A stretch of DNA of 42,349 nt from Desulfuromonas sp. (GCA_002869685.1 PKUE01000137.1:1-42349); one strand, 5' to 3'; shown: positions 12,200-42,349, counted from the stretch's first letter. Notes: generated by a model not told the origin, from the sequence alone. A program made the numbers and translations.

Positions 12200-13000
12200 C
12201 TAGCCCAGTTCGTGTTTTTTCACTTTCTCTGCCAACTCTTTCACAGTATCAGCAATATATTCCAATTCGTAACTGTCTTCAAGTTCCGCGTCGACATAGA
12301 TTCCGCGCCGCAACTGCTTGACATAGGCAACAAGACGATTAATCGGGATCAATACATTCTTCTGCAAAATTGCGGCAATGAGGCCGATGGACAACAGGAC
12401 CACCATAAACAAGAACCCCACCAGCACGTTGACCACACCATCCATCCCTTTTTCCATGGCTTTCTGCGACATGGCAACATCCACCGTGCCCAGCAGCGAT
12501 TTATTTTCGCTGCCAACATGACAACTGCTGGTGACACAGCCCTCCTGCCGGGGAATGGGATAAGACAGCCCGATAATCCGCTGATCGTTTTCATCGGTGA
12601 AGTAGCGCACCCGTTCGATACGCCTACCCCCTTCGGGCACTTCATTGGCGGTATGGCAGCTGTTACACCCTTCGGCTTTGCGATCCACCAGATGCCCAAC
12701 TTCTTCCGGATGACTGGAAAAACGGATCACTCCCTTTTTGTCAAATATCCGCAAATGGACCATGCCGGGATTGCTGCCAATATTTTTCACCATATAACCC
12801 AGAGCAGCATGGTCGTTTTTCAGCATATCGTAGCCGGTGGAACGGGCGACGGTTTTCGCCTTACAGGCAACACGCTGAACTTCTGCTTCCATCATCAGAT
12901 CTTTGATGTAGGTGTAGAGCAGAATAAAACAGACCGTAATAAATGCTGCCATGATGACGGCAACCGGGACAATTGTTCGGGTCGTGATCCGTTTTGACAT
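12200..13000 (-). CDS. Membrane-bound heme-motif sensor domain protein without an output domain
   Basis: 266 residues. Membrane segment 1 is at about 9-31 and a periplasmic domain covers 32-187. Membrane segment 2 is near 188-212. A HAMP-like cytoplasmic tail covers about 213-266 (NVLIPINRLVAYVKQLRRG...), after which the protein ends. The periplasmic part holds CNSCH at 112-116 and CVTSSCH at 155-161, that is CX2CH and CX4CH. It is clearly related to the periplasmic part of the histidine kinase at 16672-18252: KKGVIRFSS / KEGIINFST, EGCNSCH / EGCSICH, FTDEN / FYDEN, and LLGTVDVAMS / LNGILDVQIS. Without kinase or methyl-accepting domains, it may act as a partner, decoy or electron-accepting subunit. 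It lies 72 bases after the b-type cytochrome gene, but an intrinsic terminator stands in that gap. Confidence 0.82.
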   Translation of the reverse strand: MSKRITTRTIVPVAVIMAAFITVCFILLYTYIKDLMMEAEVQRVACKAKTVARSTGYDMLKNDHAALGYMVKNIGSNPGMVHLRIFDKKGVIRFSSHPEEVGHLVDRKAEGCNSCHTANEVPEGGRRIERVRYFTDENDQRIIGLSYPIPRQEGCVTSSCHVGSENKSLLGTVDVAMSQKAMEKGMDGVVNVLVGFLFMVVLLSIGLIAAILQKNVLIPINRLVAYVKQLRRGIYVDAELEDSYELEYIADTVKELAEKVKKHELG

Positions 13001-13072: not shown

Positions 13073-13714
13073 CTAATGATCGGAATGGTGATCTTCCCAG
13101 CCCGTCCACATCGGCTTAAAGTGAGCAAACGGGGTATGGCCCAACGTCGCCAGATAGAAATGGGTGGGCAAGAAAGCCCCCAAGGCGCACGCCAGCAGGA
13201 AATGGATGCCGGCGACCACACGTACCCCGCCAAACAACACCAGAACTTCACGCAGCGGCTCGAGATTCATCAGAATCGCTCCGGTGATGATCACCAGCGG
13301 CACCAGAACCATCATGATCACCACGTAAGCCCCTTTCTGCATGGGATTGAACTTATTGGTCGGGCTTTCCTCATGGGGATTGGACTTGGTTCCGGTGAAG
13401 TAATAAAAGAAGTAATACAGTGCCTGACGGATCACGCCACTTTTCAGATCCTGCGTCGTCGGCACATACAGCTTGGTCAACATCTTGGCGATAACACCGT
13501 AATAGAACAGCCACAGGGCAAATGACAGGGCGACAACGATTCCCGCCGTATGGTGCAGGCGGATTGCCGCTTTATAGGTCCCAAAGATATTGATGTACTC
13601 CGGAAAACGGATTTGCGCACCAGTCACACACAGAGTGACAATTCCCAGGGCATTCAACCAGTGCCAGATGCGAACCGGTGTCGGAGTCAGATAAATACGT
13701 TCTTGCATTTCCAT
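13073..13714 (-). CDS. cbcB: Cytochrome b subunit of a quinol oxidoreductase (CbcB-like)
   Basis: 213 residues, AGGAG seven bases before the ATG. Hydrophobic segments lie near residues 20-38, 50-75, 127-150 and 165-185, with histidines that could bind two b hemes: HWLN (residue 18), LHHTAG (near 54), GIHFLLACALGAFLPTHFYLATLGH in the last segment. The pattern is that of the formate dehydrogenase/hydrogenase cytochrome b561 family. The gene follows the 7-heme cytochrome gene by only 11 bases. A diheme b-type protein next to a seven-heme c-type protein is the CbcBA arrangement of Geobacter sulfurreducens, which passes electrons from menaquinol to the periplasm near the low-potential limit of respiration. 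Symbol given by architecture and context, not by alignment. Confidence 0.75.
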   Translation of the reverse strand: MEMQERIYLTPTPVRIWHWLNALGIVTLCVTGAQIRFPEYINIFGTYKAAIRLHHTAGIVVALSFALWLFYYGVIAKMLTKLYVPTTQDLKSGVIRQALYYFFYYFTGTKSNPHEESPTNKFNPMQKGAYVVIMMVLVPLVIITGAILMNLEPLREVLVLFGGVRVVAGIHFLLACALGAFLPTHFYLATLGHTPFAHFKPMWTGWEDHHSDH

Positions 13715-13725
13715 GTCAGTGCTCC

Positions 13726-14754
13726 TTATTTTCTGTTCTTACGGGTCAAAAAGCGCAGCGTGCCATGGCCAATCGGCATCGCCAGACCACCCAGAAGAAT
13801 CAACAAACCAACAATGTTCAACACCTTGCTGCGGGTCGAACCAACCATGTAGAAATCCGGGGTTCCGAACAGCGCATCCAGGGTTGCCCCTTTCTGCATC
13901 GGCAGGCGCTGATAGCTGCCGTCCTCAGCCGGGAAGGCGACAAAGCTGTCCTGCATCGCCTCGGGACCGGCGGCATGGCAATACGTGCAATCCCAGCGGT
14001 TATCCATGGTTTTAAAATCGTGATCCACCGTCTCCGGCGTCATCATGGCCCACAGCCGCAACCCGGAACGTTCGCTGTCCTTGTAAAATTCTGAGAGTTC
14101 CTCCAGCGACACTTCACCGCTCTGATCCACATCCAGCAGGGCGGTCACCGCCGCACCATCGACCCGCTGACTGAGCTGGTCATAGTTCAGCAATTCGTAG
14201 TCGGCATAGGCACGGTTGCCCTGGCGTTGCGTCACATACAGGGTGATGACAAACTTCTCCGAAGAACTGTGACAGGACACACAGGGCACTGAACGGATAT
14301 GCACATCCGCCTGCGGCAACCAGCGGGCATGGGTTTCCTCCACCTCGGTGGAACCGTGGCAGCCCTGACAGGATTCATTCATCTGGATTCCGGACAAACT
14401 AACCGGTGCCAGCGCCTGGTGGGCATTGTGACAGTCTGCGCAACTGGCATTTTCACCGTGCACACTGGCGGTATATGTTTCAGTGATCGCATCATGACAA
14501 TCTGCGCAGGTCGCAACGAGTTGCGCTTCCTCGCCATCGTCCGGATGTTCCTCACCGACTTCGTGACAGGCATTACATCCCTCTTCGGCATGAGCGGTAC
14601 CGGAGAACAACGCCCCATCAATGGCATTGCTTTCCCCCACTTCATCCACCTCGGTATGACAGCCCAGGCAATCTTCAGTCTCCATGGCCCACAGGTTCTG
14701 CCCCATCAACAGACAAGCCAGAATGGCCGCATAACACAGCAATAATCGTTTCAT
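13726..14754 (-). CDS. cbcA: Seven-heme c-type cytochrome with EF-hand (CbcA-like)
   Basis: 342 residues. A signal peptide (1-23) leads to a periplasmic region with seven CXXCH motifs: CLGCH, CNACH, CADCH, CADCH, CQGCH, CVSCH and CTYCH. A C-terminal membrane anchor lies near 313-333, with a basic tail. Between hemes 6 and 7, residues 208-219 read DVDQSGEVSLEE, a canonical EF-hand calcium loop, an unusual insertion. It is first in the operon with cbcB, about 100 bases downstream of a predicted sigma-54 start. Seven hemes plus a b-type partner matches CbcA of Geobacter. It would accept electrons from CbcB and hand them to periplasmic carriers. An alternative is the electron-transfer subunit of another quinone-linked complex. 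Confidence 0.82.
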   Translation of the reverse strand: MKRLLLCYAAILACLLMGQNLWAMETEDCLGCHTEVDEVGESNAIDGALFSGTAHAEEGCNACHEVGEEHPDDGEEAQLVATCADCHDAITETYTASVHGENASCADCHNAHQALAPVSLSGIQMNESCQGCHGSTEVEETHARWLPQADVHIRSVPCVSCHSSSEKFVITLYVTQRQGNRAYADYELLNYDQLSQRVDGAAVTALLDVDQSGEVSLEELSEFYKDSERSGLRLWAMMTPETVDHDFKTMDNRWDCTYCHAAGPEAMQDSFVAFPAEDGSYQRLPMQKGATLDALFGTPDFYMVGSTRSKVLNIVGLLILLGGLAMPIGHGTLRFLTRKNRK

Positions 14755-16671: not shown

Positions 16672-18252
16672 CTAGCTGGCCGCCGTAAGACGATCCCCGC
16701 TGCTGACCGGCAACCGAACAGTAAAAGCCGTGCCTTTATTGGTACTGCTTTCAACCCGAATATCTCCACCGTGATTCTCGACGATCCCGTAAGATACCGA
16801 CAAGCCAAGGCCGGTTCCCTGCTGATCTTTGGTAGTAAAGAACGGATCAAAAATCCGCTCAAGATTTTCGCCTGAAATCCCGCAGCCGGTGTCGGCTATC
16901 CGCACCATCACCATCGCCTCATCATGCCAGGTTTTGATCGCAAGCTGACCGCCAGCCGGCATAGCCTGAGCGGCATTGATAAAAATGTTCATAAACACCT
17001 GCTCCAGCTGATTGGGGTCCCCTTCGATTTCAGGCAGGACATCATCATATTCGCGGGTGATTTCGACATCCTGGAACAGCGTCTGATTTTCCACCAGGGC
17101 CAGAGTTTTATCGAGAATTCGGTTGATGCTCACCGATGTTTTCATCGGAATCGACTCACGGCCAAAATCAAGCAATCCGCGAACAATCCCGGCACACCGT
17201 TGTGTTTCCTGAGTAATGGTATTGAGATCTTTTTTGAGTTGTTCGCTGATCCCCGGTGTCTCTTCAGCCATGGAGGAGAACATCAGAATGCCGGTCAGTG
17301 GGTTATTAATCTCATGGGCAATACCGGCAACCAGCTTACCCAGCGACGCAAGACGCTCGGAACGAGCCAGGGTCCCCTGCATCTTTTGAATCTGTTGCGT
17401 CCGCTCCTCAACCTTGGCTTCGAGCGTATTAGCCCAGGTACGAATCTCATCCTGCGAAGCCCGCAGACTGTGGGTCATCTGATTCGCACCCCGCGCCAGC
17501 TCACCCAGCTCATCGTTGGGAGCATCTTCAATCATACTGCTCAGATCTCCCGCGGAAATACGCCGTTGATGTTCCAGCAAAACATTGACGGGTGAAATGA
17601 TCAGCCGCTTGGTCAGCAGTAACAGGGCAACAAACAGCAACACCAGGAGAACACAGGTAAGAATAACGAAATAATTGCGGAAAATATCCACTTGCGCCAT
17701 GCGGTTCTTCAGGGAGATCTGGACATCGAGAATCCCGTTAAGTTCACGGTCCTGGGGATGGTAATGACATTCTGCCGTATAGCAGCTGGGATCATTGTAG
17801 ATCGCCTTGGTGACCCCGAGAAAGATTTCACCATTTTCATCGTAGAAAGTCCGGCCACGTGCGGCAGTCGGAGCATACGCCAACGGTTCGCCGGTATCGA
17901 GGTGACAGATACTGCACCCCTCGGAGTTGTGCTGAATAATCGTACCAACTTCCTGCTTGTCGGTCGAAAAGTTGATGATCCCCTCTTTATTGAACAGGCG
18001 GATACGACGGATGCCGGGCATGGCCCCAACCTCGTCGATCATCTGGTAAAGCATCTCCCGATCATCTTCGAGCATCTGATAATAGGTGGAGCGCAGGATG
18101 GTTTCGCTGAAATAATCGGCTTCATGCAGTGAGTTTTCCAACGTGATCTGCCGCTGAAAACGGACATTGACCACAACGGAGATAAACATGGTGATCAACA
18201 GGACCGTGCTGATAACAGCCATGAATTTAACCAGCAGGGAAAACCGCAACAT
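16672..18252 (-). CDS. Sensor histidine kinase with a heme-motif periplasmic domain
   Basis: 526 residues. Membrane segment 1 is at about 8-30 and the periplasmic sensor covers 31-190. Membrane segment 2 is near 193-215 and a HAMP domain near 216-270. A coiled-coil runs to about residue 295. The dimerisation domain has the phospho-acceptor H313 (GIAHEINNPL), and the ATPase domain carries N (NIFINAAQAM), G1 (DTGCGI), F (FDPFFTTK) and G2 (GTGLGLSV) boxes. The sensor carries CSICH at 113-117 and CYTAECH at 157-163. The first is a normal c-type heme site; the second is CX4CH, which may bind heme atypically. The kinase is the probable partner of the adjacent sigma-54 regulator, sensing periplasmic redox state. 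The ATG at 18252 follows TAGGG; an upstream extension to 18300 looks unneeded. Confidence 0.88.
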   Translation of the reverse strand: MLRFSLLVKFMAVISTVLLITMFISVVVNVRFQRQITLENSLHEADYFSETILRSTYYQMLEDDREMLYQMIDEVGAMPGIRRIRLFNKEGIINFSTDKQEVGTIIQHNSEGCSICHLDTGEPLAYAPTAARGRTFYDENGEIFLGVTKAIYNDPSCYTAECHYHPQDRELNGILDVQISLKNRMAQVDIFRNYFVILTCVLLVLLFVALLLLTKRLIISPVNVLLEHQRRISAGDLSSMIEDAPNDELGELARGANQMTHSLRASQDEIRTWANTLEAKVEERTQQIQKMQGTLARSERLASLGKLVAGIAHEINNPLTGILMFSSMAEETPGISEQLKKDLNTITQETQRCAGIVRGLLDFGRESIPMKTSVSINRILDKTLALVENQTLFQDVEITREYDDVLPEIEGDPNQLEQVFMNIFINAAQAMPAGGQLAIKTWHDEAMVMVRIADTGCGISGENLERIFDPFFTTKDQQGTGLGLSVSYGIVENHGGDIRVESSTNKGTAFTVRLPVSSGDRLTAAS

Positions 18253-18359
18253 AAAAACCCTATTCAGAACCGGACAACGGAGACAGCAACGCCATACCAA
18301 AGCATCACTCTACGCATGCCATAGTGCGGCGAACGGCGCAAAAAATCAAGCAATGACCG

Positions 18360-18732: not shown

Positions 18733-20580
18733 TTAATGGCTGCCACCAAGAATGGCCATCACCATCAATACCAGCAGGGTGACACCAATCGCCACCGCAG
18801 TGAAACCGAAGATACGCAGTACCAGACCATAAATCGGGCTGGAAGGCTTCTCTTTGAAGAACTGCTCGGTGATACCGAGATCTTCATAACGCTTCCACTG
18901 ATCGCCACGCTCTTCAACAAACTCTTCTTTGTGCATTTCGCCATTGAAGATAACGAAGTCCATGGGGAACTTCTCAGGGCGGAGGTGCGTATTGAAGAAG
19001 TGAACCGAGAAGATAAAGCCGGTCGCCAACAGCGCCTCATCCGAGTGAACGATGGTGGCCACGTTGAACACCCAACCCGGCAGGAATGTGCCGAAGAAGG
19101 TCGGGAACCACAACATCAGACCGGAACCACCGATGGCAAACATACCCCAGAAGACGGCGATGAAGTCGAATTTTTCCCAGTAGTTCCAGCGCTCGAAGGT
19201 CGGTTTTGGACCTTTCCACAGGAACCAGCGTACCATGCCGGTGACGTCTTTGATGTCACGGAAGTTCGGCATCAGAGAATCGGGGCCGAACAGACGCTGC
19301 AACCACATACCCGGAATGTCCTTACGGATAAACAGGAAGTGAATACTCAGAACAATCGCCATACCGAAGTAAACGAAGGTGATGCAGGCACCAATACGGT
19401 GACCGAAAGCAGCATTTGCCGTACCACCGTAGAAGTCCATCATCACCTGCGCCCAGTGCTGGGTCGAGAACTTCAAGGGCAGACCGGTCAGAGCCAGGAT
19501 CAGGAAGCTGATGATAACCAGCAAGTGCATGAAAATATGGTAGTTTTGGAAACGTTTGTAGACGCGATGTCCGTCAGGAATCTCGATGTGCGCCTTACCG
19601 GCAGCCAGAGCCGCTTTTTTCTCTTTATTGTCGGCGATACCACGGATCATCCACAGGATGGAGTGGAGCCAGAACACAGAGAAGGTACCCACCAGCAGGG
19701 CCGTCATCGCCCAGAAGGTAACAGCCAATACTGGATAGTTATCAAAATCGGAGTGGTCACCGTGAGCGTAGAACTGACTGAACAGACGGGTTGAACCATC
19801 GTGACACTTACCGCAGGTATCGGCACGATTCTCGATGTTGATCGTCGCAGCCGGATTCTCCTCGGGGTAGATGTCATGACTGCCATGGCAGTCGGCACAG
19901 GTCGCGGTCAGTTCAGGATAGCCCAGACGGTAGCTCTTACCGTGGTAGCTCGCCAGATAGGTATGAACCGCACCGCCGTACACCTCGTTGCGCTCCATCA
20001 TCTCTTCGTCGCCATGACAGGTGATACAGGCATCGGTTCCGAAAGAACGCGCCACTTTCACGTCGCATGTCGACAGGCCGGTGATCGCGTGGAGGCCGTG
20101 ACAGTCAGCACAGGACGCGCCATCTTCATTGCCTTCAGCAATCGCCTTGCCGTGAGTGGACTCCGCATAGCCTTCCATTTCGTGGCAATTGCTACAACCA
20201 TTAACAATGGATTGCTTGCCTTCCGGTGCCGGGGTCAGTGTATGAATTCCACTGTGACAGTCAACACAGCCAACTTCGTTCTGAGCGTGAACACTGCCGG
20301 CATGCTCTTCAGCAATCGAATCATGGCAGCTGGCACAATCCACGGGACCGGGCAGCACACCCTCGTCTACGTGAGCCGTCAGATCAGCAATCGCATGGCA
20401 ATCGAGACAGGCAATCTCATTCTCACCATGAACTGATGCCATGAAGTCATTGGCAGCAACGACATCTTCGTGACATTCCAGGCAGGTTTCCATATCTGCC
20501 AGAGCACTCTGGGCGCCGAACAGCAGCATGAATGCTGCCAGCAGACCCAACGATACCCAACGCGATACCCTTTTCTCCAT
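18733..20580 (-). CDS. cbcL: Nine-heme c-type / cytochrome b fusion protein (CbcL-like)
   Basis: 615 residues. Signal peptide 1-28, then nine CXXCH motifs in about residues 33-275: CLECH, CLDCH, CASCH, CVDCH, CSNCH, CADCH, CITCH, CADCH, CGKCH. The C-terminal half is a multi-segment cytochrome b domain of the hydrogenase/formate dehydrogenase gamma type, with candidate heme histidines in FQNYHIFMHL, GHRIG and SIHFLF. A b-type domain fused to exactly nine c-type hemes is the architecture of CbcL of G. sulfurreducens, the menaquinol oxidase used for acceptors of intermediate-to-low potential. AAGGAG lies seven bases before the ATG. It is monocistronic, with a terminator right after it and a dyad operator (copy C) 111 bp upstream. 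Confidence 0.9.
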   Translation of the reverse strand: MEKRVSRWVSLGLLAAFMLLFGAQSALADMETCLECHEDVVAANDFMASVHGENEIACLDCHAIADLTAHVDEGVLPGPVDCASCHDSIAEEHAGSVHAQNEVGCVDCHSGIHTLTPAPEGKQSIVNGCSNCHEMEGYAESTHGKAIAEGNEDGASCADCHGLHAITGLSTCDVKVARSFGTDACITCHGDEEMMERNEVYGGAVHTYLASYHGKSYRLGYPELTATCADCHGSHDIYPEENPAATINIENRADTCGKCHDGSTRLFSQFYAHGDHSDFDNYPVLAVTFWAMTALLVGTFSVFWLHSILWMIRGIADNKEKKAALAAGKAHIEIPDGHRVYKRFQNYHIFMHLLVIISFLILALTGLPLKFSTQHWAQVMMDFYGGTANAAFGHRIGACITFVYFGMAIVLSIHFLFIRKDIPGMWLQRLFGPDSLMPNFRDIKDVTGMVRWFLWKGPKPTFERWNYWEKFDFIAVFWGMFAIGGSGLMLWFPTFFGTFLPGWVFNVATIVHSDEALLATGFIFSVHFFNTHLRPEKFPMDFVIFNGEMHKEEFVEERGDQWKRYEDLGITEQFFKEKPSSPIYGLVLRIFGFTAVAIGVTLLVLMVMAILGGSH

Positions 20581-34399: not shown

Positions 34400-35176
34400 A
34401 TGAAATCAATCATTCTCGGCCTGTGTCTTGTTTCGGGCCTGTTTATCGCCAGCACAACTTGCGCTTCTGAAACGCTGACCGACAGCGACTGCGTCAAATG
34501 TCATATCAACGCCGTCAAGGATGTCGCTGCCCATGGTGGCGCCCACAATGACATGGGCTGCCAGGACTGCCACCTTGAGCATCCGCCACTCGGAACACGG
34601 ATCATCCCCGAATGTTCTCTGTGTCACAGCCCGGACGAAACGGCACACTACACGCTGGGAAACTGCGTCGGCTGCCATTATCCACACCACCCGCTCGACA
34701 TTGATTTCACGGCACTGAGTGATGTCAAACCGGCCTGCGTTTCCTGCCATCCCGAGCAGGGCGATGAAATGACCGCCCACCCCAGCCTTCATGCCGAGCA
34801 GGATTGCAACGCCTGCCACAACGCGCACGGCCTCGGTGAAGGACAATATCAGAACTGCCTCGATTGCCACGAGGGTCACTCCGAAACCATGACGGTCAGC
34901 GACTGCACCCTGTGCCACAAACCCCACAGCCCCAAGGAGGTCAAGTACAGCGATCTGCCCTCAGAGCTGTGTGCCGCCTGTCACGACGGCATTGCCGCCC
35001 AGCTGGCCAAGTCGACGAAAAAGCACCACGACCTGACCTGTTCCGAATGTCATGTTGACAAGCACAAGACAATCACCTCCTGTGAGGACTGCCACGGCGA
35101 GCCCCACGGCATCATGCACCAGAAGTATCCGAACTGCGTTGAGTGTCATATCGACCCCCACGCACTGGCGGAATAA
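34400..35176 (+). CDS. Exported 12-heme c-type cytochrome, three tetraheme units
   Basis: 258 residues, ATG with GGAGGAG five bases upstream. A signal peptide (1-22) leads to 12 CXXCH motifs in about 235 residues, one per 20. They repeat in fours: CVKCH...AH...CQDCH...CSLCH...CVGCHxPHHP, then CVSCH...CNACH...CLDCH...CTLCHKPHSP, then CAACH...CSECH...CEDCH...CVECH. Extra histidines in the AHxxMGCQDCH, PHHP and EGHS segments are the probable distal ligands, giving bis-histidine hemes. Soluble periplasmic electron carrier by inference. First of three cytochromes built on the same unit in one operon; the next has five units. Confidence 0.9.
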   Translation: MKSIILGLCLVSGLFIASTTCASETLTDSDCVKCHINAVKDVAAHGGAHNDMGCQDCHLEHPPLGTRIIPECSLCHSPDETAHYTLGNCVGCHYPHHPLDIDFTALSDVKPACVSCHPEQGDEMTAHPSLHAEQDCNACHNAHGLGEGQYQNCLDCHEGHSETMTVSDCTLCHKPHSPKEVKYSDLPSELCAACHDGIAAQLAKSTKKHHDLTCSECHVDKHKTITSCEDCHGEPHGIMHQKYPNCVECHIDPHALAE

Positions 35177-35185
35177 ATGGCGACC

Positions 35186-35217
35186 GGCTGGCACTCACTC
35201 AACCGTGAGTGCCAGCC
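35186..35217 (+). other. Perfect 13-bp hairpin between the 12-heme and 20-heme genes
   Basis: GGCTGGCACTCAC (35186-35198) pairs with GTGAGTGCCAGCC (35205-35217) around a six-base loop. No T run follows, so it is not a classical terminator. A structure of this strength between two genes of an operon usually protects the upstream message from 3' decay or limits read-through. Confidence 0.7.
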
Positions 35218-35265
35218 TAACCCGTCATGACGATTCTTCACATTCTTTACCCACGGTTGGTTTCA

Positions 35266-36558
35266 ATGATGTGTATTGCCCGAACACAACGCCTGCTCGT
35301 CAGCGCTCTGTTTTTTGTCCTGATGCTGCTCACCACCTCGCTCAGCTTCGGTGAGATCAAGGCTGTTCCCCTGACAGACGCAGACTGCATTAAATGCCAT
35401 CATCAGCCATCGGTCGAGATCCGTGACCACGGCAGTGCTCACCGTGATGAACTCGGCTGCCTGGGTTGCCATGACAATCATCCTCCTTTAGGTGATGCCG
35501 TCATCCCTGAATGCAGCGACTGCCACAGCCGCGACGATCAGCGCCACTTCAGCCTTGACGGCTGCAGCAAGTGCCACAATCCTCATGCGCCGGTCATCAC
35601 CGACCTCAGCGGACTGAACGCCCCAAAACTGGCGTGCCTGTCCTGCCATGACCAGGTCGGAGCAACCATGAATTCCCAGCCAAGCCTGCACGCCGAGCAA
35701 CAGTGCAACGATTGCCACAGCGAGCACGGCACAGCCCCCGGACAATTTTCCACCTGTATCGACTGCCACGACAAACACTCCCCCGAGATGACCTATCAGG
35801 ATTGTCTCGGCTGCCATCAACCCCACGCGCCGACGACGTACCAATGGCAGGACAATACACCGACGCAGCTGTGTGCAGCATGCCACAACGATCAGGTCAG
35901 CGAGTTGAATCGTGCCGGTGAAGCTCATGCCCGTGAAATCAGTTGCAGCGACTGTCATCAGCAGCATCCGCCCAGCGAATCCGGTGTCATCCCCGAATGC
36001 GCCAGCTGCCATGCGCCGGGTGACCATCGCCATTATAAACTCGATAACTGTACCGCCTGCCATAAGCCCCATGCACCGCTGGAAATTGACCTGACGGCAG
36101 TGTCGCCAATCAAACCCGTGTGTGTTTCGTGCCACGCGACGCCAGAGGCCGAAATGGTTGAATGGCCCAGCGCCCATGGTGAAATGGACTGTAACGAGTG
36201 CCATCAGGAGCATGGCAATGCCATGACCTGCCTCGAATGCCATGAAGGCCATAGCGACACTATGGCATATAAAGATTGTCTCCGCTGCCATCAGCCGCAC
36301 AGTCCCACGGCATTGCAGTTTTCCAAAGCGGGAATCGCTTCTGACCTGTGCGGCAGCTGCCACCGTGGCCAGCTCAAACAACTTGCGGAAAACACCACCA
36401 AACATACCGAAGTTCAGTGTGTATTCTGCCATCGCCGCACCCACAAAGTGATTTTGAGTTGCGACAACTGCCACGGCGAACCCCACGACGCAAGTATTCA
36501 TCAACACTTTAAAGAGTGTCGCCAGTGCCACAATGGGCCACACAACCTGAAAAATTAA
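35266..36558 (+). CDS. Exported 20-heme c-type cytochrome, five tetraheme units
   Basis: 430 residues from the ATG at 35266, chosen because it gives a standard signal peptide (MMCIARTQRLLVSALFFVLM...LSFG). Starts at 35227 or 35269 are possible and no strong ribosome site distinguishes them. Twenty CXXCH motifs run in the same four-heme rhythm as the preceding protein: CIKCH-CLGCH-CSDCH-CSKCH, CLSCH-CNDCH-CIDCH-CLGCH, CAACH-CSDCH-CASCH-CTACH, CVSCH-CNECH-CLECH-CLRCH, CGSCH-CVFCH-CDNCH-CRQCH. Hemes 1-8 and 9-16 align with each other (HPPLGDAVIPECSDCH / HPPSESGVIPECASCH; PSLHAEQQCNDCH / PSAHGEMDCNECH). The protein is thus the 12-heme neighbour with one eight-heme block duplicated. Probably a long periplasmic wire; partners unknown. 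Confidence 0.9.
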   Translation: MMCIARTQRLLVSALFFVLMLLTTSLSFGEIKAVPLTDADCIKCHHQPSVEIRDHGSAHRDELGCLGCHDNHPPLGDAVIPECSDCHSRDDQRHFSLDGCSKCHNPHAPVITDLSGLNAPKLACLSCHDQVGATMNSQPSLHAEQQCNDCHSEHGTAPGQFSTCIDCHDKHSPEMTYQDCLGCHQPHAPTTYQWQDNTPTQLCAACHNDQVSELNRAGEAHAREISCSDCHQQHPPSESGVIPECASCHAPGDHRHYKLDNCTACHKPHAPLEIDLTAVSPIKPVCVSCHATPEAEMVEWPSAHGEMDCNECHQEHGNAMTCLECHEGHSDTMAYKDCLRCHQPHSPTALQFSKAGIASDLCGSCHRGQLKQLAENTTKHTEVQCVFCHRRTHKVILSCDNCHGEPHDASIHQHFKECRQCHNGPHNLKN

Positions 36559-36581
36559 TCCGGCAACCAACGAGGTCAGCC

Positions 36582-37406
36582 ATGAAAGTTTGTTTACCCC
36601 TGACATCCTGCGTTTTAACCCTGCTTTTCCTGCTGACAACGGGGAGCACTGCCTGTGCCGACAGCGATATTTTCTCCCAGCCCGTCGAACCGATGACCAC
36701 ACTGGAGTGTGCACGCTGTCACGAGCAGGTGTTTACTGACCTGCGTGACCACGGTGGTGCCCACAAAATGGTCTGTCGTGATTGCCATGAAACTTTTCAC
36801 AATTTCAGTCAAAAACTGACTTGGCAACAACGCGTCCCGGCCTGCAGTAACTGCCACGACTACCCCCATGGCGAGTCAGCGACGATGTCTGCCTGCCTGG
36901 ACTGCCACAGCAATGCACACGCCCCGGTAGCCAGCCTCAATCTTGCCGTTTTCGAACCTCTCTGCGCTCAATGCCACGAGCAACCGGCCAAAGAGATGGC
37001 TCTCCCCAGCGCACACAGCGACATGGGTTGCATCGACTGCCATCAACAACGTCACGGCTATCGTCCCAAGTGTACGGAGTGCCACGAACAACCCCACTCC
37101 CCCTTTGTCAGCAGTCGCGACTGCATGCAATGTCACCCCGTTCACAATGTCAGCGTCCTGCTTTATACTGACAGCATCAGCAACAGCGCCTGTGCCGGCT
37201 GTCATGACAAGGCCGGCAGCGACCTGCAACAGGGGCACCTTGCCCACGCACTGCTGAACTGCACCTTTTGCCATGCGGCAGAGCACGGCGCAATCCCGAC
37301 ATGCCAGGACTGTCACGACACGCCTCACAGTGCGGACATGCTCAAAGGCTTTGACGGCTGCAACGGTTGCCACGGCAATCCTCACAATCTGCTCCCCGGC
37401 TCCTGA
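36582..37406 (+). CDS. Exported 12-heme c-type cytochrome, third member of the set
   Basis: 274 residues from the ATG preceded by GAGG (six bases). Signal peptide 1-26 or so, then 12 CXXCH: CARCH, CRDCH, CSNCH, CLDCH; CAQCH, CIDCH, CTECH, CMQCH; CAGCH, CTFCH, CQDCH, CNGCH. The rhythm of four holds (DLRDHGGAHKMVCRDCH, MALPSAHSDMGCIDCH, QGHLAHALLNCTFCH each open a unit). It is more diverged than the first two, with longer linkers around heme 2 and heme 8. It follows the 20-heme gene by 23 bases and precedes the Sel1 gene by 28, so one operon is likely. Confidence 0.9.
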   Translation: MKVCLPLTSCVLTLLFLLTTGSTACADSDIFSQPVEPMTTLECARCHEQVFTDLRDHGGAHKMVCRDCHETFHNFSQKLTWQQRVPACSNCHDYPHGESATMSACLDCHSNAHAPVASLNLAVFEPLCAQCHEQPAKEMALPSAHSDMGCIDCHQQRHGYRPKCTECHEQPHSPFVSSRDCMQCHPVHNVSVLLYTDSISNSACAGCHDKAGSDLQQGHLAHALLNCTFCHAAEHGAIPTCQDCHDTPHSADMLKGFDGCNGCHGNPHNLLPGS

Positions 37407-37434: not shown

Positions 37435-38526
37435 ATGACTGCGCGCAATAAACTGGTTCTCAATATTCTCCTTTTTGTCAGCTGCGTTCTCCTCGCCGGT
37501 GGAGCTCTGCTGTACAACTACAGCTACAAACTGTGCTGGAAGTGCTCCACCCACGAATACTACCAGCGCGGCAAAGAATTTGTGACCCACGCGGACGACG
37601 AACTGCAACATACCGGTGTCGACTTTATCCGACTTGCCGCTGATCACGGCGATGTTGAAGCTCAACTGCTTCTGGCCGAAAGCCATGCTCCTAGCCTGCC
37701 TCAGGGCTATGTCAGCACGACCCCCATAGCCCAAGAAATGCTGACCCCGCTGGTCATCCGCAGTCGTGCTATTGCCAAAACCCTGCTCTCCGAGGCCTAT
37801 AACCGCCTTTACGCTGCCAGCAACCTGTCGGCTGATCAGTTGTACAATATGGCGCTATTGGTTGAAGCCGGTTTAATCGATCGCGACAATCCCGGTGAGG
37901 CAACTCACGACTTGTTGATTCAGGCAGCGGAAGCAGGCAACTATCCGGCCATGTCGCGGCTTGGCAACGACTACCATCAAAAATCAGAATACGCGCTGGC
38001 TAAAAAATGGCTGCGCCGTGCTGCCGAAGCCGGGCGTGACCCTCAACCGGCCCTGACTCTTGGCGACTATTTTTATTACGGCAAAAGCGAATCAGTTAAC
38101 TACGAAAAAGCCATGCACTGGTATCGCCTCGCCCTGCAAACCCAACGCACCCTGTCCGCCCGGGACAGCGAACAACAGCGCCTCGCTGCGGAAGACATTC
38201 CAATGGCCCGTATCGACATGGCCATGCGACAACTGCAGAAAACCCGCATGCAAGCACCACTCACTCTCACCTATCACCTGTCCGGCGACGCCAAGAATTA
38301 TCAGATTTTCGTCAGCGACCACCCTGAAGGTCCGATTGGCGAAGTAACAACCATTGCGCAGGAAGTCGTTGCCACCATGGACAATTCCATCACCCTGGCC
38401 CTGTCCATTCCCGTCCGAAAAAAGACCTTCCACTCTTCCAACGAAGGGCTTAACTGGGTTCTGCAGTCCTATGCCCGCAGCCGCTACGGCAGCTACAGCC
38501 GATTTGACTTCAAACTGGTCCGCTAG
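37435..38526 (+). CDS. Membrane-anchored Sel1-repeat protein with a CWKC motif
   Basis: 363 residues. One N-terminal membrane segment (about 7-28) is followed at once by CWKC (residues 34 and 37), which lacks the histidine of a heme site and could be a redox-active or structural pair. About residues 55-260 contain Sel1/TPR-like helical repeats (LAADHGDVEAQLLLAES; AAEAGNYPAMSRLGNDY; AAEAGRDPQPALTLGDYFYYGK...YEKAMHWYRLAL). A C-terminal domain (about 265-363) of strands and helix has no recognised relative. It ends the three-cytochrome operon. A periplasmic scaffold or assembly factor for the cytochromes is a reasonable guess from position; nothing shows it directly. Confidence 0.78.
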   Translation: MTARNKLVLNILLFVSCVLLAGGALLYNYSYKLCWKCSTHEYYQRGKEFVTHADDELQHTGVDFIRLAADHGDVEAQLLLAESHAPSLPQGYVSTTPIAQEMLTPLVIRSRAIAKTLLSEAYNRLYAASNLSADQLYNMALLVEAGLIDRDNPGEATHDLLIQAAEAGNYPAMSRLGNDYHQKSEYALAKKWLRRAAEAGRDPQPALTLGDYFYYGKSESVNYEKAMHWYRLALQTQRTLSARDSEQQRLAAEDIPMARIDMAMRQLQKTRMQAPLTLTYHLSGDAKNYQIFVSDHPEGPIGEVTTIAQEVVATMDNSITLALSIPVRKKTFHSSNEGLNWVLQSYARSRYGSYSRFDFKLVR

Positions 38527-38822: not shown

Positions 38823-40037
38823 ATGAAAAGTTGGCTACGGCTGTTTCTCTGCGTTGCTATCCTGTCCACAGTGGCGTTGCCACTCAATAGCGCGTTAGGG
38901 ATAACAGTATCAGGACGGTCAAGTACCGAGATCGAATGGTACGACACCGGCGACGGTGAGACCGCCGTCCCCTTTTACCAGTACATGATGCTCAATGTTC
39001 ATGACATTGACAACGATGGGCTGGCATTTCGGGGCTATGGTCGTGTCGCCGATGACTTGGCCGATGAGGCAGATGTTGACAGTCGGCTCTATTATGCGTA
39101 TCTGGAAAAGAAGGATCTGATCAAAGATCTGGATGTACGCTTTGGCCGCCAGTTTATTTCCACAACCGCCGGTGCATCGATTATGGATGGCCTGTATGTT
39201 GACTACTCCGGTTGGGGTGACGTCGACATCACCGTCTTTGGCGGTGGCGATGTTGCCTACTATGAAGGCTACAACGCCAAAGACCTGATTGCGGGCATTG
39301 AGGTACGTCGTACTTTTATGGACGATCTGAACCTGGGTCTGTCTTACCTGCAAAAATGGGATCACAGTGAATTGGCCAACGAACTGTTCGGCCTCGACGT
39401 CGATTACGACTTCAAAGATGCGCTGTACGTGTACAGCGAAACCCAGTTCAACTATCTCGCCAATACCGTCAGTTACTTCCTTGGCGGCGCCAAATACCAC
39501 CGCAGTGATGATTGGTCCGTACGGGCCGAGTATCTCTACTCGCTGCCGGTATTTTCCTCCACCTCTATCTACTCAGTGTTTGCCGTGGATGAGTATGAGG
39601 AACTGTTCGTCGAATACGAGCAGCGCCTGATGCCGGGCCTGCGTGCGTTTGTCAACTACGCGCGTGAAATGTACGAATACGATGCGGATGCCGACGTATT
39701 TGAAGCCGGTATCGAAAAGATCCGCACCGGTCGTTTTTCTGGCTACGTGATCGGCACCTGGCGTGAAGATCCTGATGGTCAGGATCTGGCCGGGATCAAA
39801 GTCTACGCAGCAACCACCATCAACCAGAAGTTCCAGGCGGGCGCAGGTATCCACCTTGACGTTATGGAACGCTATCTGGATGAAGATGAGGATGACACCA
39901 CCAACTCCCGTATCTGGGTTGATGGCACCGTCACCTTCAATCGCAAAGTGAATCTACAGGCCAAGGTTGAGCGGGTAGAGAGTGATCTGTGGGACGAGTA
40001 TTACCGTGGCCGCGTTCGCTTGAATATCCGTTTCTAA
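38823..40037 (+). CDS. Outer-membrane beta-barrel of a porin-cytochrome conduit
   Basis: 404 residues. Signal peptide 1-26, then short alternating strands rich in aromatic girdle residues with acidic turns (ITVSGRSSTEIEWYDTGDGE..., LDVRFGRQFISTT, DLNLGLSYLQKW, WSVRAEYLYSLP...), ending RGRVRLNIRF with a terminal phenylalanine as in proteins folded by the BAM complex. Strand pattern suggests 16-20 strands. GGGAGG lies four bases before the ATG. Its neighbours downstream, a 10-heme periplasmic cytochrome and a multiheme lipoprotein, reproduce the porin / inner cytochrome / outer cytochrome set of Geobacter (OmbB-OmaB-OmcB order). It would form the sheath that lets heme chains cross the outer membrane. 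Confidence 0.85.
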   Translation: MKSWLRLFLCVAILSTVALPLNSALGITVSGRSSTEIEWYDTGDGETAVPFYQYMMLNVHDIDNDGLAFRGYGRVADDLADEADVDSRLYYAYLEKKDLIKDLDVRFGRQFISTTAGASIMDGLYVDYSGWGDVDITVFGGGDVAYYEGYNAKDLIAGIEVRRTFMDDLNLGLSYLQKWDHSELANELFGLDVDYDFKDALYVYSETQFNYLANTVSYFLGGAKYHRSDDWSVRAEYLYSLPVFSSTSIYSVFAVDEYEELFVEYEQRLMPGLRAFVNYAREMYEYDADADVFEAGIEKIRTGRFSGYVIGTWREDPDGQDLAGIKVYAATTINQKFQAGAGIHLDVMERYLDEDEDDTTNSRIWVDGTVTFNRKVNLQAKVERVESDLWDEYYRGRVRLNIRF

Positions 40038-40050
40038 AAAGGAGTCACAT

Positions 40051-40875
40051 ATGAAGCACACAGTATTGATATTTTGGACCGCCATGGTCGTGCTGGTGAC
40101 ATCCACTGCCTGGGCGACGCCCTTTGACCATGACGAGCACGTTTCGATTTTGGAACAGAATTGTGTCAGCTGCCATGTGGCTGATGCCGAAAGCATTGTT
40201 CCGGATGTTGACATCTGTCTGAACTGCCATGAATCAACCATGGTAGATGCGGTGTCGTTCACCGGCCTGAAAACCCATGATGCCACCTGGGCACTCAGTC
40301 ACCGCGCTGCGGCAAAAAGCAAGTCCATGGACTGTGCCGCCTGTCACCAGCAGAACGAGTGCCTGGAATGCCACACGGCCGGATTTGCCGATGAGATGGG
40401 ATCGTTCGGCAACAGCATGACCAATGTGCACCGCAGTGATTTTCAAGTAACCCACCCGATTGCGGCACGCACCAATCCGCAATTATGTTCCAGCTGCCAT
40501 GAAAGCAGCTTCTGCTCCGACTGCCACAGCGATTTCCGCCGCAGTTCCCTCACGGGCGTATCGCATCAACGCAGCTTCAGCAGTTTAACCGTCGGCGCAA
40601 CCGGTCCGGCCCACGAGAGCTTCAACGAGTCTCAATGCCAGACCTGCCATGTCGATTCAATTTTACCGTCACACGAATGGACCAGCAGTCACGCCCGCGA
40701 GGCACGGAAAAACCTGGCCACCTGCCAGGCCTGCCACCCCGAAGGTGATGTCTGCATCAAGTGTCACAGTGCTCGCAGTGGTTTGGGAATCAATCCCCAT
40801 CCCAAGGACTGGGATGACATTGATGGAAGAATGCTTCGTGCCAGCGATGGCCGAACCTGCCGTAAGTGTCACTAA
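40051..40875 (+). CDS. Ten-heme periplasmic cytochrome of the conduit
   Basis: 274 residues, AAGGAG six bases before the ATG and 13 bases after the porin gene. Signal peptide 1-22, then ten CXXCH: CVSCH, CLNCH, CAACH, CLECH, CSSCH, CSDCH, CQTCH, CQACH, CIKCH and CRKCH. The last motif is the very end of the protein: the histidine of CRKCH is the final residue before TAA. The N-terminus begins FDHDEHVSILEQNC, a common start for conduit decaheme or octaheme proteins such as OmaB/MtrA. It would sit in the porin from the periplasmic side. Confidence 0.9.
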   Translation: MKHTVLIFWTAMVVLVTSTAWATPFDHDEHVSILEQNCVSCHVADAESIVPDVDICLNCHESTMVDAVSFTGLKTHDATWALSHRAAAKSKSMDCAACHQQNECLECHTAGFADEMGSFGNSMTNVHRSDFQVTHPIAARTNPQLCSSCHESSFCSDCHSDFRRSSLTGVSHQRSFSSLTVGATGPAHESFNESQCQTCHVDSILPSHEWTSSHAREARKNLATCQACHPEGDVCIKCHSARSGLGINPHPKDWDDIDGRMLRASDGRTCRKCH

Positions 40876-40901
40876 CACACACGACAACATAGGAGGTAGG
40901 A

Positions 40902-42349
40902 ATGAAGGTAAAACAATGGTTATCCTTTTTCGTAGTGCTCGGCAGTATTGTGCTGCTGGCGGCCTGCGGAAGCAATTCCGGTTCCGGTGGCGACCAGTCT
41001 GCCGGGACGTCTGATGGCGATCTCGGATCTGATCCCACCACCGGTACCAGTTATGTCGGTGCTGCCACCTGTATCGGCTGCCATGAGGATTTCAGCTGGA
41101 GCGCAGACGATGTCGCCGACTATCTGGCCGGAAAGCACGTCAACAACTATGCCGGACATTATGGTTATGACTACATGGTCGAAAACGGCTGTGACTCCTG
41201 TCATGACCCCATCGGTGACAGCCCGGACATGATGGCGCTGCTGGACAACCCTGATCTGGTGACCGTAGGCTGTGAGAACTGTCACGGTGCGGGTGGTGAG
41301 CACTACGGTGTTGGCCCGATCCCCATCGCCGAGCCCGGCATCACCGAGTGTGCTCAGTGCCATGATGAGCTGCCGGAAAGCCACCTCGAGCACCACCCTG
41401 AGGCAAACTTTATCGCAACCAACTATGTCGCCTCAAAACACTACACCGCGTCAGTGCGCAACGAAGCAGTCTGTTCCCGTTGCCACACCGACCTGGGCGG
41501 TCGCCTGTACAAAGACGTCACTACCAATGCCCAGCTGGAAGCCACGGTTTTCCCAGTTGACAGCGATGAAGCAATCCAGTGCCGCACCTGTCACAACCCG
41601 CACAATGCTGGCGGCCTGCTGTTTGAGGACGTAGAAGATCACGGTCATGTTGTTGCCAGCGGCGAATACGCCACTTGCACCAGCTGCCATATGCCTGCTG
41701 ATGCGGTTGTTGCCACCACCGGTGCCGATGCTGACGGCGATGGTGACCTGGATACCGACTGGACCACAACCGAAACCATGTATCACGAAACTGCATACTA
41801 CCGCATTATCACCGACACCCACTATGACGATCCGGCAACAACGGATGTCATTGAGGGCTATGTTGTTAAAAACCTCGACGAGCGCGCCTGCCGTGATTGC
41901 CATGATGTGCATGCCGTTGAAGAGATCCGTGCGGATGACGATTCATCCAGCTTCTCCAACACCATTAATGACCAGTGGGCCAAATCAGGCCATGCCGGTA
42001 CGATCGGTTCCATTAAGCTTGAAACCGCTGAATACTACGATGACACGTTGGACAAAGACCGCACCATTGAGCAAACCATTGCCATCAAAGAGGCTGGGGT
42101 TACTGAAACAGAAGGCGCAGCTTGGGTTCACTACGACTGGGATTCTGATAGCCGCCAGGGCTGCCAGATGTGCCATACCGCAACTGGTGCCAAGAACTAC
42201 CTGACCGACCCGAGCAGCTATGATGCCGCAAACAATGACTTCTCTCACTTGGATGGTTGGGAAGCAGGTGTCAGCTCTTCCGATCAGAACGAACTGCTCT
42301 ACTGCTGGGGCTGCCACAGCAACAACCAAGGCGAATTGCGTAATCCTGG
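40902..42349 (+). CDS. Multiheme lipoprotein cytochrome, cut by the window end
   Basis: The frame runs from the ATG at 40902 (AGGAGG seven bases upstream) to the right edge without a stop; 482 residues are visible. The lipoprotein signal ends LLAA-C with the cysteine at residue 22, followed by a Ser/Gly-rich linker. Ten CXXCH motifs are seen so far: CIGCH, CDSCH, CENCH, CAQCH, CSRCH, CRTCH, CTSCH, CRDCH, CQMCH and CWGCH. Between hemes 7 and 8 lies an acidic loop, DADGDGDLDTD, typical of calcium binding. The long low-heme stretches and surface lipid anchor fit the outer-surface terminal reductase of the conduit (OmcB-like role). Total length and heme number are unknown. Confidence 0.9.
   Translation, partial: MKVKQWLSFFVVLGSIVLLAACGSNSGSGGDQSAGTSDGDLGSDPTTGTSYVGAATCIGCHEDFSWSADDVADYLAGKHVNNYAGHYGYDYMVENGCDSCHDPIGDSPDMMALLDNPDLVTVGCENCHGAGGEHYGVGPIPIAEPGITECAQCHDELPESHLEHHPEANFIATNYVASKHYTASVRNEAVCSRCHTDLGGRLYKDVTTNAQLEATVFPVDSDEAIQCRTCHNPHNAGGLLFEDVEDHGHVVASGEYATCTSCHMPADAVVATTGADADGDGDLDTDWTTTETMYHETAYYRIITDTHYDDPATTDVIEGYVVKNLDERACRDCHDVHAVEEIRADDDSSSFSNTINDQWAKSGHAGTIGSIKLETAEYYDDTLDKDRTIEQTIAIKEAGVTETEGAAWVHYDWDSDSRQGCQMCHTATGAKNYLTDPSSYDAANNDFSHLDGWEAGVSSSDQNELLYCWGCHSNNQGELRNP

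Follow-up and report, generated by a model that had tools for sequence, protein, structure and literature searches.

We analyzed a stretch of 42,349 nucleotides from Desulfuromonas sp. (GCA_002869685.1, PKUE01000137.1:1-42349), hereafter the window. Three successive genes on its plus strand encode multiheme cytochromes: cytochrome A (34400..35176, 258 aa), cytochrome B (35266..36558, 430 aa), and cytochrome C (36582..37406, 274 aa). The three proteins contain 12, 20, and 12 CXXCH heme motifs, respectively; in composition-matched shuffles the mean number of these motifs was 0.24-0.39, and the maximum was 4. Coordinates, lengths, and motif counts agree with a first-pass annotation of this DNA; however, that annotation described three lengths side by side, and the operon has only two. 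Its description of the proteins as exported holds as a prediction, because by inspection all three leaders are of the Sec type and none has a lipobox. A scan for promoters and terminators gave no signal above chance.

The heme-to-heme distances are periodic at a lag of four in each protein (permutation P 0.0033 for A, 0.0001 for B, and 0.015 for C), which bears out the rhythm of four noticed in the first-pass annotation. A degenerate DNA pattern of this rhythm had zero matches in the organism's own genome; the pattern was too strict. We divided the proteins into four-heme units and scored identities without the heme cysteines and histidines. The units belong to three classes, α, β, and γ. Cytochrome A has the architecture αβγ (units at 34490-34735, 34736-34969, and 34970-35173), and cytochrome B is αβαβγ. 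The first αβ pair of B (block 1, hemes 1-8) lies at 35386..35871, with units at 35386-35634 and 35635-35871; the second pair (block 2, hemes 9-16) lies at 35872..36348, with units at 35872-36120 and 36121-36348; and the terminal γ unit (hemes 17-20) occupies 36349..36555. Cytochrome C is a diverged αβγ paralogue, whose units (36708-36962, 36963-37190, and 37191-37403) form their own clade inside each class.

Outside the heme residues, the α units of A and B (A1, B1, B3) are 34-39% identical to one another, the β units (A2, B2, B4) 40-44%, and the γ units (A3, B5) 36%, versus about 10-31% for units from different classes. Within B, the identity is 34% between units 1 and 3 and 40% between units 2 and 4. 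The proposed match of hemes 1-8 of B to hemes 9-16, and of its last four hemes to the last four of A, is thus confirmed. The idea of a single repeated four-heme unit fared less well: the period in the spacing is real, but the units are not one sequence. Similarly, the recurring linkers HPPLG..IPEC and EGHSxTM are present, but the former is specific to the α class and the latter to the β class. The three classes are no longer recognizable as derivatives of one common sequence.

A phylogeny of 288 units from 46 proteins of the window and its relatives recovered the three classes, with supports of 0.916, 0.73, and, for γ, 0.988. Each of the 46 proteins ends in a single γ unit, preceded by α and β units in mostly alternating order. 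A per-unit phylogeny had been suggested as a check on internal duplication; in this tree the classes follow the order of the repeats. Because A is αβγ, B is αβαβγ, and C is a diverged αβγ, we take the copied module to be the eight-heme αβ pair and not the four-heme unit. In the AlphaFold model of B, helices recur at a shift of 162 residues, which is the length of one αβ pair (helix pairs 46/208, 57/220, 64/227, 93/255, 129/291, 141/303, and 148/310). These models were computed free of heme; the one for B is of medium confidence (pLDDT 74, pTM 0.50), and the one for A has a pLDDT of 86.

All three proteins score above the cut-offs of two Pfam families. For Cytochrom_c3_2 (PF14537, cut-off 25) the bit scores are 30.1 (A), 63.9 (B, E 2e-17), and 41.5 (C), and for Cytochrome_C7 (PF14522, cut-off 24.8) they are 38, 61.1, and 34.2. 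Scores against the small tetraheme cytochrome CctA (NF047727) were far below its cut-off of 180 bits (47.1 for B, 20.9 for A, and 22.3 for C). CctA, the STC of Shewanella, is of a four-heme type like the units described here, but it consists of a single unit. STC was the best Foldseek match of the B model, with an E-value of only 2.2. The heme-free models of A and B gave no clear structural match in Foldseek (best E 0.17 and 2.2); together with VIA-align, these searches returned weak matches only, all but one of which were multiheme cytochromes.

In a wider sample of 395 genomes from across the phylum, 43 had a match to the 12-heme αβγ protein at E 1e-40 or better, nearly always in reading frames of about 250-350 aa. 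The gene order 12-20-12, followed by a gene for a Sel1-like protein, is retained in most of the genomes examined from the window's family. The same order recurs in another order of the phylum, where four genomes (G647-G650) have a complete 12-20-12 operon with a partner in the Sel1 position, and another (G588) has a 12-12-12 operon. Every complete operon examined has a C with 12 hemes, and A, where it is present, has 12 as well. The B slot holds 12 hemes in G588 and in G221, a close relative of genome G131; its occupant has 20 in G647-G650 and in the window's family. In two other genomes 20 hemes are reached as αβββγ, a second route to that size.

In ten genomes from other families of the window's order, a single giant gene is found without a separate A, and a homologue of the 12-heme C adjoins it in all ten. 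The giants have 49, 53, 57, 57, 57, 65, 72, 73, 77, and 77 CXXCH motifs, and their units sort into the α, β, and γ classes of the window. All ten have one extra heme, located 27 places before the C-terminus, and nine (the exception is the one with 72) have 4n+1 hemes; this heme is absent from A, B, and C of the window, which all have 4n. The identical position of the extra heme and the near-constant 4n+1 count argue that the giants have a common ancestor and that variation occurred mostly toward the N-terminus. A search for 4n-heme variants among relatives, another of the suggested checks, thus yielded the 12- and 20-heme forms, whereas the giants mostly follow 4n+1. Some giants have αα, ββ, or irregular unit orders, and their steps are not always of eight hemes. 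In one of them, adjacent αβ pairs are 78% and 69% identical, as in a young tandem copy.

The close relatives G131 and G221 differ in B, which has 20 hemes in the former and 12 in the latter. Aligned with the B gene of G131, that of G221 has an in-frame gap of exactly one αβ pair; the DNA flanking the gap is about 88% identical on either side. Within the homologous α units, the junction is located at heme 3. Collapse of the repeat by the assembler is an unlikely source of the short gene, because the longest run common to the two α units in the intact G131 gene is only 9 bp; this judgment was made on the assembly. The direction of the change, loss or gain, would follow from the 20-heme form being the more widespread one. 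The short B of G588 groups with the first αβ blocks instead in the block tree described below, so that at least two different eight-heme changes likely occurred among the relatives. Of the earlier interpretation, the part in which cytochrome size changes through the gain or loss of modules is supported by the block difference between G131 and G221, by the 12, 20, and 49-77 hemes found in the B slot, and by the young tandem αβ copy. In our judgment the modular family is real and well supported; the window carries its short and middle forms.

In a tree of the αβ blocks, the αβ pairs of A (support 91/76), the first αβ pairs of B (98/96), and the second αβ pairs of B together with all giant blocks (94/90) form separate groups. 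Each group includes members of two orders, the giant blocks coming from the window's order; the duplication inside B therefore looks older than the window's lineage. The same tree suggests that the giants arose by amplification of second blocks. The history given in the first-pass annotation, in which B is A with an added copy of an eight-heme block, is not favored by the best tree, and we consider it improbable that B arose from a 12-heme A in this lineage in that way. The architectures, αβγ and αβαβγ, fit such an origin, and close relatives do differ by eight hemes. AU tests rejected no alternative: trees with the two blocks of B as sisters (p 0.21), with a duplication placed inside the window's lineage (p 0.147), or with A joined to the first block of B (p 0.38 and 0.57) were all retained. 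The separation of the three groups, each with genomes of another order, speaks against derivation from A, as does the grouping of A with a 12-heme paralogue from another locus of the same genome (94/84). That the four-beat rhythm was reached independently as a packing constraint, leaving no trace of duplication, deserves almost no credence. A and C do share the rhythm despite low sequence identity; however, same-class units are 34-49% identical, well above the between-class range, the units form class trees, and an exact eight-heme indel and the tandem neighbors in one giant are found. Packing alone was rejected as the origin of the rhythm on the same-class identities and the exact indel.

Downstream of C, at 37435..38526 on the plus strand, is a gene for a Sel1/TPR-like protein with an N-terminal membrane segment and a C-W-x-C motif, and without heme motifs. 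The Sel1 repeat score is below the Pfam cut-off in the window protein and above it in relatives. Homologues lie next to C in operons of the window type and at several giant loci (L060, L061, L065, L066, and L128), which makes this protein a conserved partner; none was found at the Malonomonas-type loci. A gap of 296 bp separates the A-B-C-Sel1 operon from a trio of genes on the same strand (38823-42349) whose arrangement is like that of porin-cytochrome conduits. The first gene (38823..40037) encodes an exported protein of 404 residues in the place of the outer-membrane porin. It has zero Pfam or NCBIfam matches; its assignment as a putative β-barrel is based on its position and on the occurrence of the same trio at four other loci (L070, L071, L078, and L104). 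The second (40051..40875) encodes an exported cytochrome with ten CXXCH motifs and an MtrC/MtrF-like domain match, probably a periplasmic member of the conduit. The third (40902..42349) encodes a multiheme cytochrome that is a lipoprotein by its leader and matches the MtrC/MtrF domain above the cut-off; it is cut by the contig end after 10 CXXCH motifs, and complete orthologues have 13. Since the trio is missing beside the A-B-C operon in other families, the pairing with a conduit may be local.

Protein length per heme is nearly constant, at 19.4-20.7 residues from the 12-heme to the 77-heme proteins, and all proteins measured have 1.00-1.45 spare histidines per heme. All 20 CXXCH motifs and 21 further histidines are invariant across B and the C-termini of the giants, and beyond their heme units A, B, and C contain no further domain. 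The spare histidines, the constant number of residues per heme, and the invariant motifs and histidines argue against an enzyme site; most likely the hemes are all low-spin bis-histidine hemes that pass or store electrons. The description as a molecular wire fits the sequence, given the spare conserved histidine per heme. We consider it probable, with some reserve, that A, B, and C are exported class III (c3/c7-like) multiheme cytochromes with the αβ pair as module, and that in the periplasm their heme chains link a quinol oxidase of the inner membrane to an outer-membrane conduit. Their four-heme units, which belong to three classes, usually stand in the order (αβ)n γ, and intragenic recombination between homologous units would add or remove αβ pairs in frame and in register. 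A heme chain could then alter its length with the repeat unbroken, since whole αβ pairs are exchanged in frame and register. We infer recombination as the general process; the case in the sequences is one pair of close relatives. The proteins would serve as long, soluble periplasmic conduits or reservoirs of electrons; the set of the 404-residue protein, the ten-heme cytochrome, and the lipoprotein cytochrome is the candidate conduit, and the membrane-anchored Sel1 protein may be a docking or assembly partner.

Among other roles, that of a terminal reductase, with sulfur or a metal as a possible substrate, seems very improbable for any of the three proteins. Nitrite and sulfite reductases do occur among the weak structural matches, but these have Z of only 2-4, no domain lies beyond the heme units, and in every protein measured the number of spare histidines is one or more per heme. 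A somewhat better case, though still an unlikely one, can be made for A, B, and C as subunits of an extracellular cytochrome filament like Geobacter OmcS instead of periplasmic carriers. Elsewhere in the organism's own genome, paralogues of A and C are clustered with genes for a β-barrel-like protein, a CsgG/LpoB-like lipoprotein, a PPIase, and cytochromes of 26 and 16 hemes. We retain a link to filaments because this cluster, which holds the 12-heme paralogues, is related to the genes that flank an OmcS-like gene in another genome. A comparable Geobacter block, GSU2500-GSU2493, is tied to secretion of the OmcS nanowire (PMC12977616), and the 69-heme relative has been predicted to be extracellular (PMC4914508). 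Against a filament, secretion genes of this kind are lacking from the window operon, the PDB sequence matches of A do not include OmcS, and about 20 aa per heme resembles periplasmic cytochromes, OmcS-type proteins being described with more protein per heme (PMC12977616). The Foldseek search gave no structural match to the OmcS fold, a result that excludes nothing. A gene at locus L107 matches OmcS at 2.7e-56; a six-heme protein at locus L104 was considered as an OmcS homologue and dropped, having no PDB match.

There is no settled answer as to why the number of hemes varies so widely among multiheme cytochromes, a question on which the B slot, with its constant neighbors, bears. Bacteria appear to alter the length of a probable electron wire by copying modules. 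We tentatively go one step further, to a single-chain heme wire of tunable length: one slot ranging from 12 to 77 hemes, mostly through exchange of eight-heme cassettes, with constant partners and with length or capacity under selection. This reading is possible but doubtful. If it is true, wire length or charge capacity is selected, perhaps so that the chain matches how wide the periplasm is or how far apart membrane complexes lie. The forms with 12, 20, and 49-77 hemes are a natural series for relating length to conductance, to charge storage, and to growth on solid acceptors, and the αβ pair offers an existing cassette for the design of protein wires with a chosen length.

The giants have been reported before. 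DSOUD_0664 of Desulfuromonas soudanensis has 69 motifs (PMC4914508), a count that fits the 4n+1 rule of nine of our ten giants. PMC8465243 gives 53 motifs for DESUT3_5430 of D. versatilis and 55-77 for its homologues. The giant of genome G124 has the same heme count (53) and, by locus number, a matching genome position. Malonomonas rubra DSM 5091, for which we found a 57-heme form, is named there as a source of a homologue. The published Desulfuromonadales giants very probably represent the long form of B. The excerpted texts of both papers give counts and homologues, with no mention of the αβ module, of C and Sel1 as partners, of the extra heme at its fixed place, or of shorter forms with 12 and 20 hemes. 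Judged by the open-access papers searched, the αβ cassette with a γ end and the conserved operon in which one slot varies are new, as are the extra heme at a fixed place in the giants and the finding that close relatives differ by exactly eight hemes.

In Geobacter sulfurreducens, GSU1996 consists of four triheme domains and GSU2210 has 27 hemes; these proteins have been called nanowires of hemes (PMC10138318). Like A, B, and C, each is one exported chain of many hemes, thought to act as a periplasmic electron reservoir (PMC10138318). However, GSU1996 has three hemes per domain, one of them a His-Met heme (PMC10138318), whereas the proteins studied here have four hemes per unit, three unit classes, and spare histidines for each heme. 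A, B, and C do not have the GSU1996-type triheme repeat; their period is four and their module eight. The 12-heme paralogues in the window's own genome lie at a cluster related to the GSU2500-GSU2493 block, with a distant OmcS-like protein. ExtA, with 12 hemes and 32 kDa (PMC12977616), was considered as a candidate Geobacter counterpart on its description.

The lipoprotein cytochrome at 40902-42349 is interrupted by the contig end; its full-length orthologues contain 13 CXXCH motifs and four stretches matching domains II/IV of MtrC/MtrF. Two further cytochromes, both encoded on the reverse strand of the window, are candidate inner-membrane quinol oxidases that could supply the proposed chain through the exported cytochromes A, B, and C: a 9-heme protein of 615 aa with a membrane domain (18736-20580), and a 7-heme protein adjoining a cytochrome b561-type protein (13076-14754). 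On the same strand, a sensor histidine kinase (16675-18255) and a short protein without a kinase (12203-13000) each have one CXXCH in the predicted periplasmic sensor part; these two are possibly heme c redox sensors.

The window's own genome harbors a second locus with paralogous cytochromes (contig C124, L013:4516-18989), one that resembles a secretion cluster for nanowires of the OmcS type. It encodes a 12-heme alpha-beta-gamma protein and a 12-heme C-type lipoprotein; these are followed by a 679-aa beta-barrel-like protein, a CsgG/LpoB-like lipoprotein, and a PPIase. Its further genes encode a 26-heme lipoprotein, a 16-heme cytochrome, and a 5-heme protein that is distantly OmcS-like.

Two genomes have clusters of three neighboring 12-heme genes (L129:1504-3965 and L130:5089-7513); one gene in each is C-type, and the spacing differs (18,15). 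The giant cytochrome at L128:3313-6543 (54 CXXCH) ends without the last beta and gamma units, probably reflecting a frameshift or a truncated gene in a draft assembly. In two genomes, 20-heme cytochromes (L074:8673-9920 and L075:8003-9289) equal B in size through another combination of four-heme units, alpha-beta-beta-beta-gamma.
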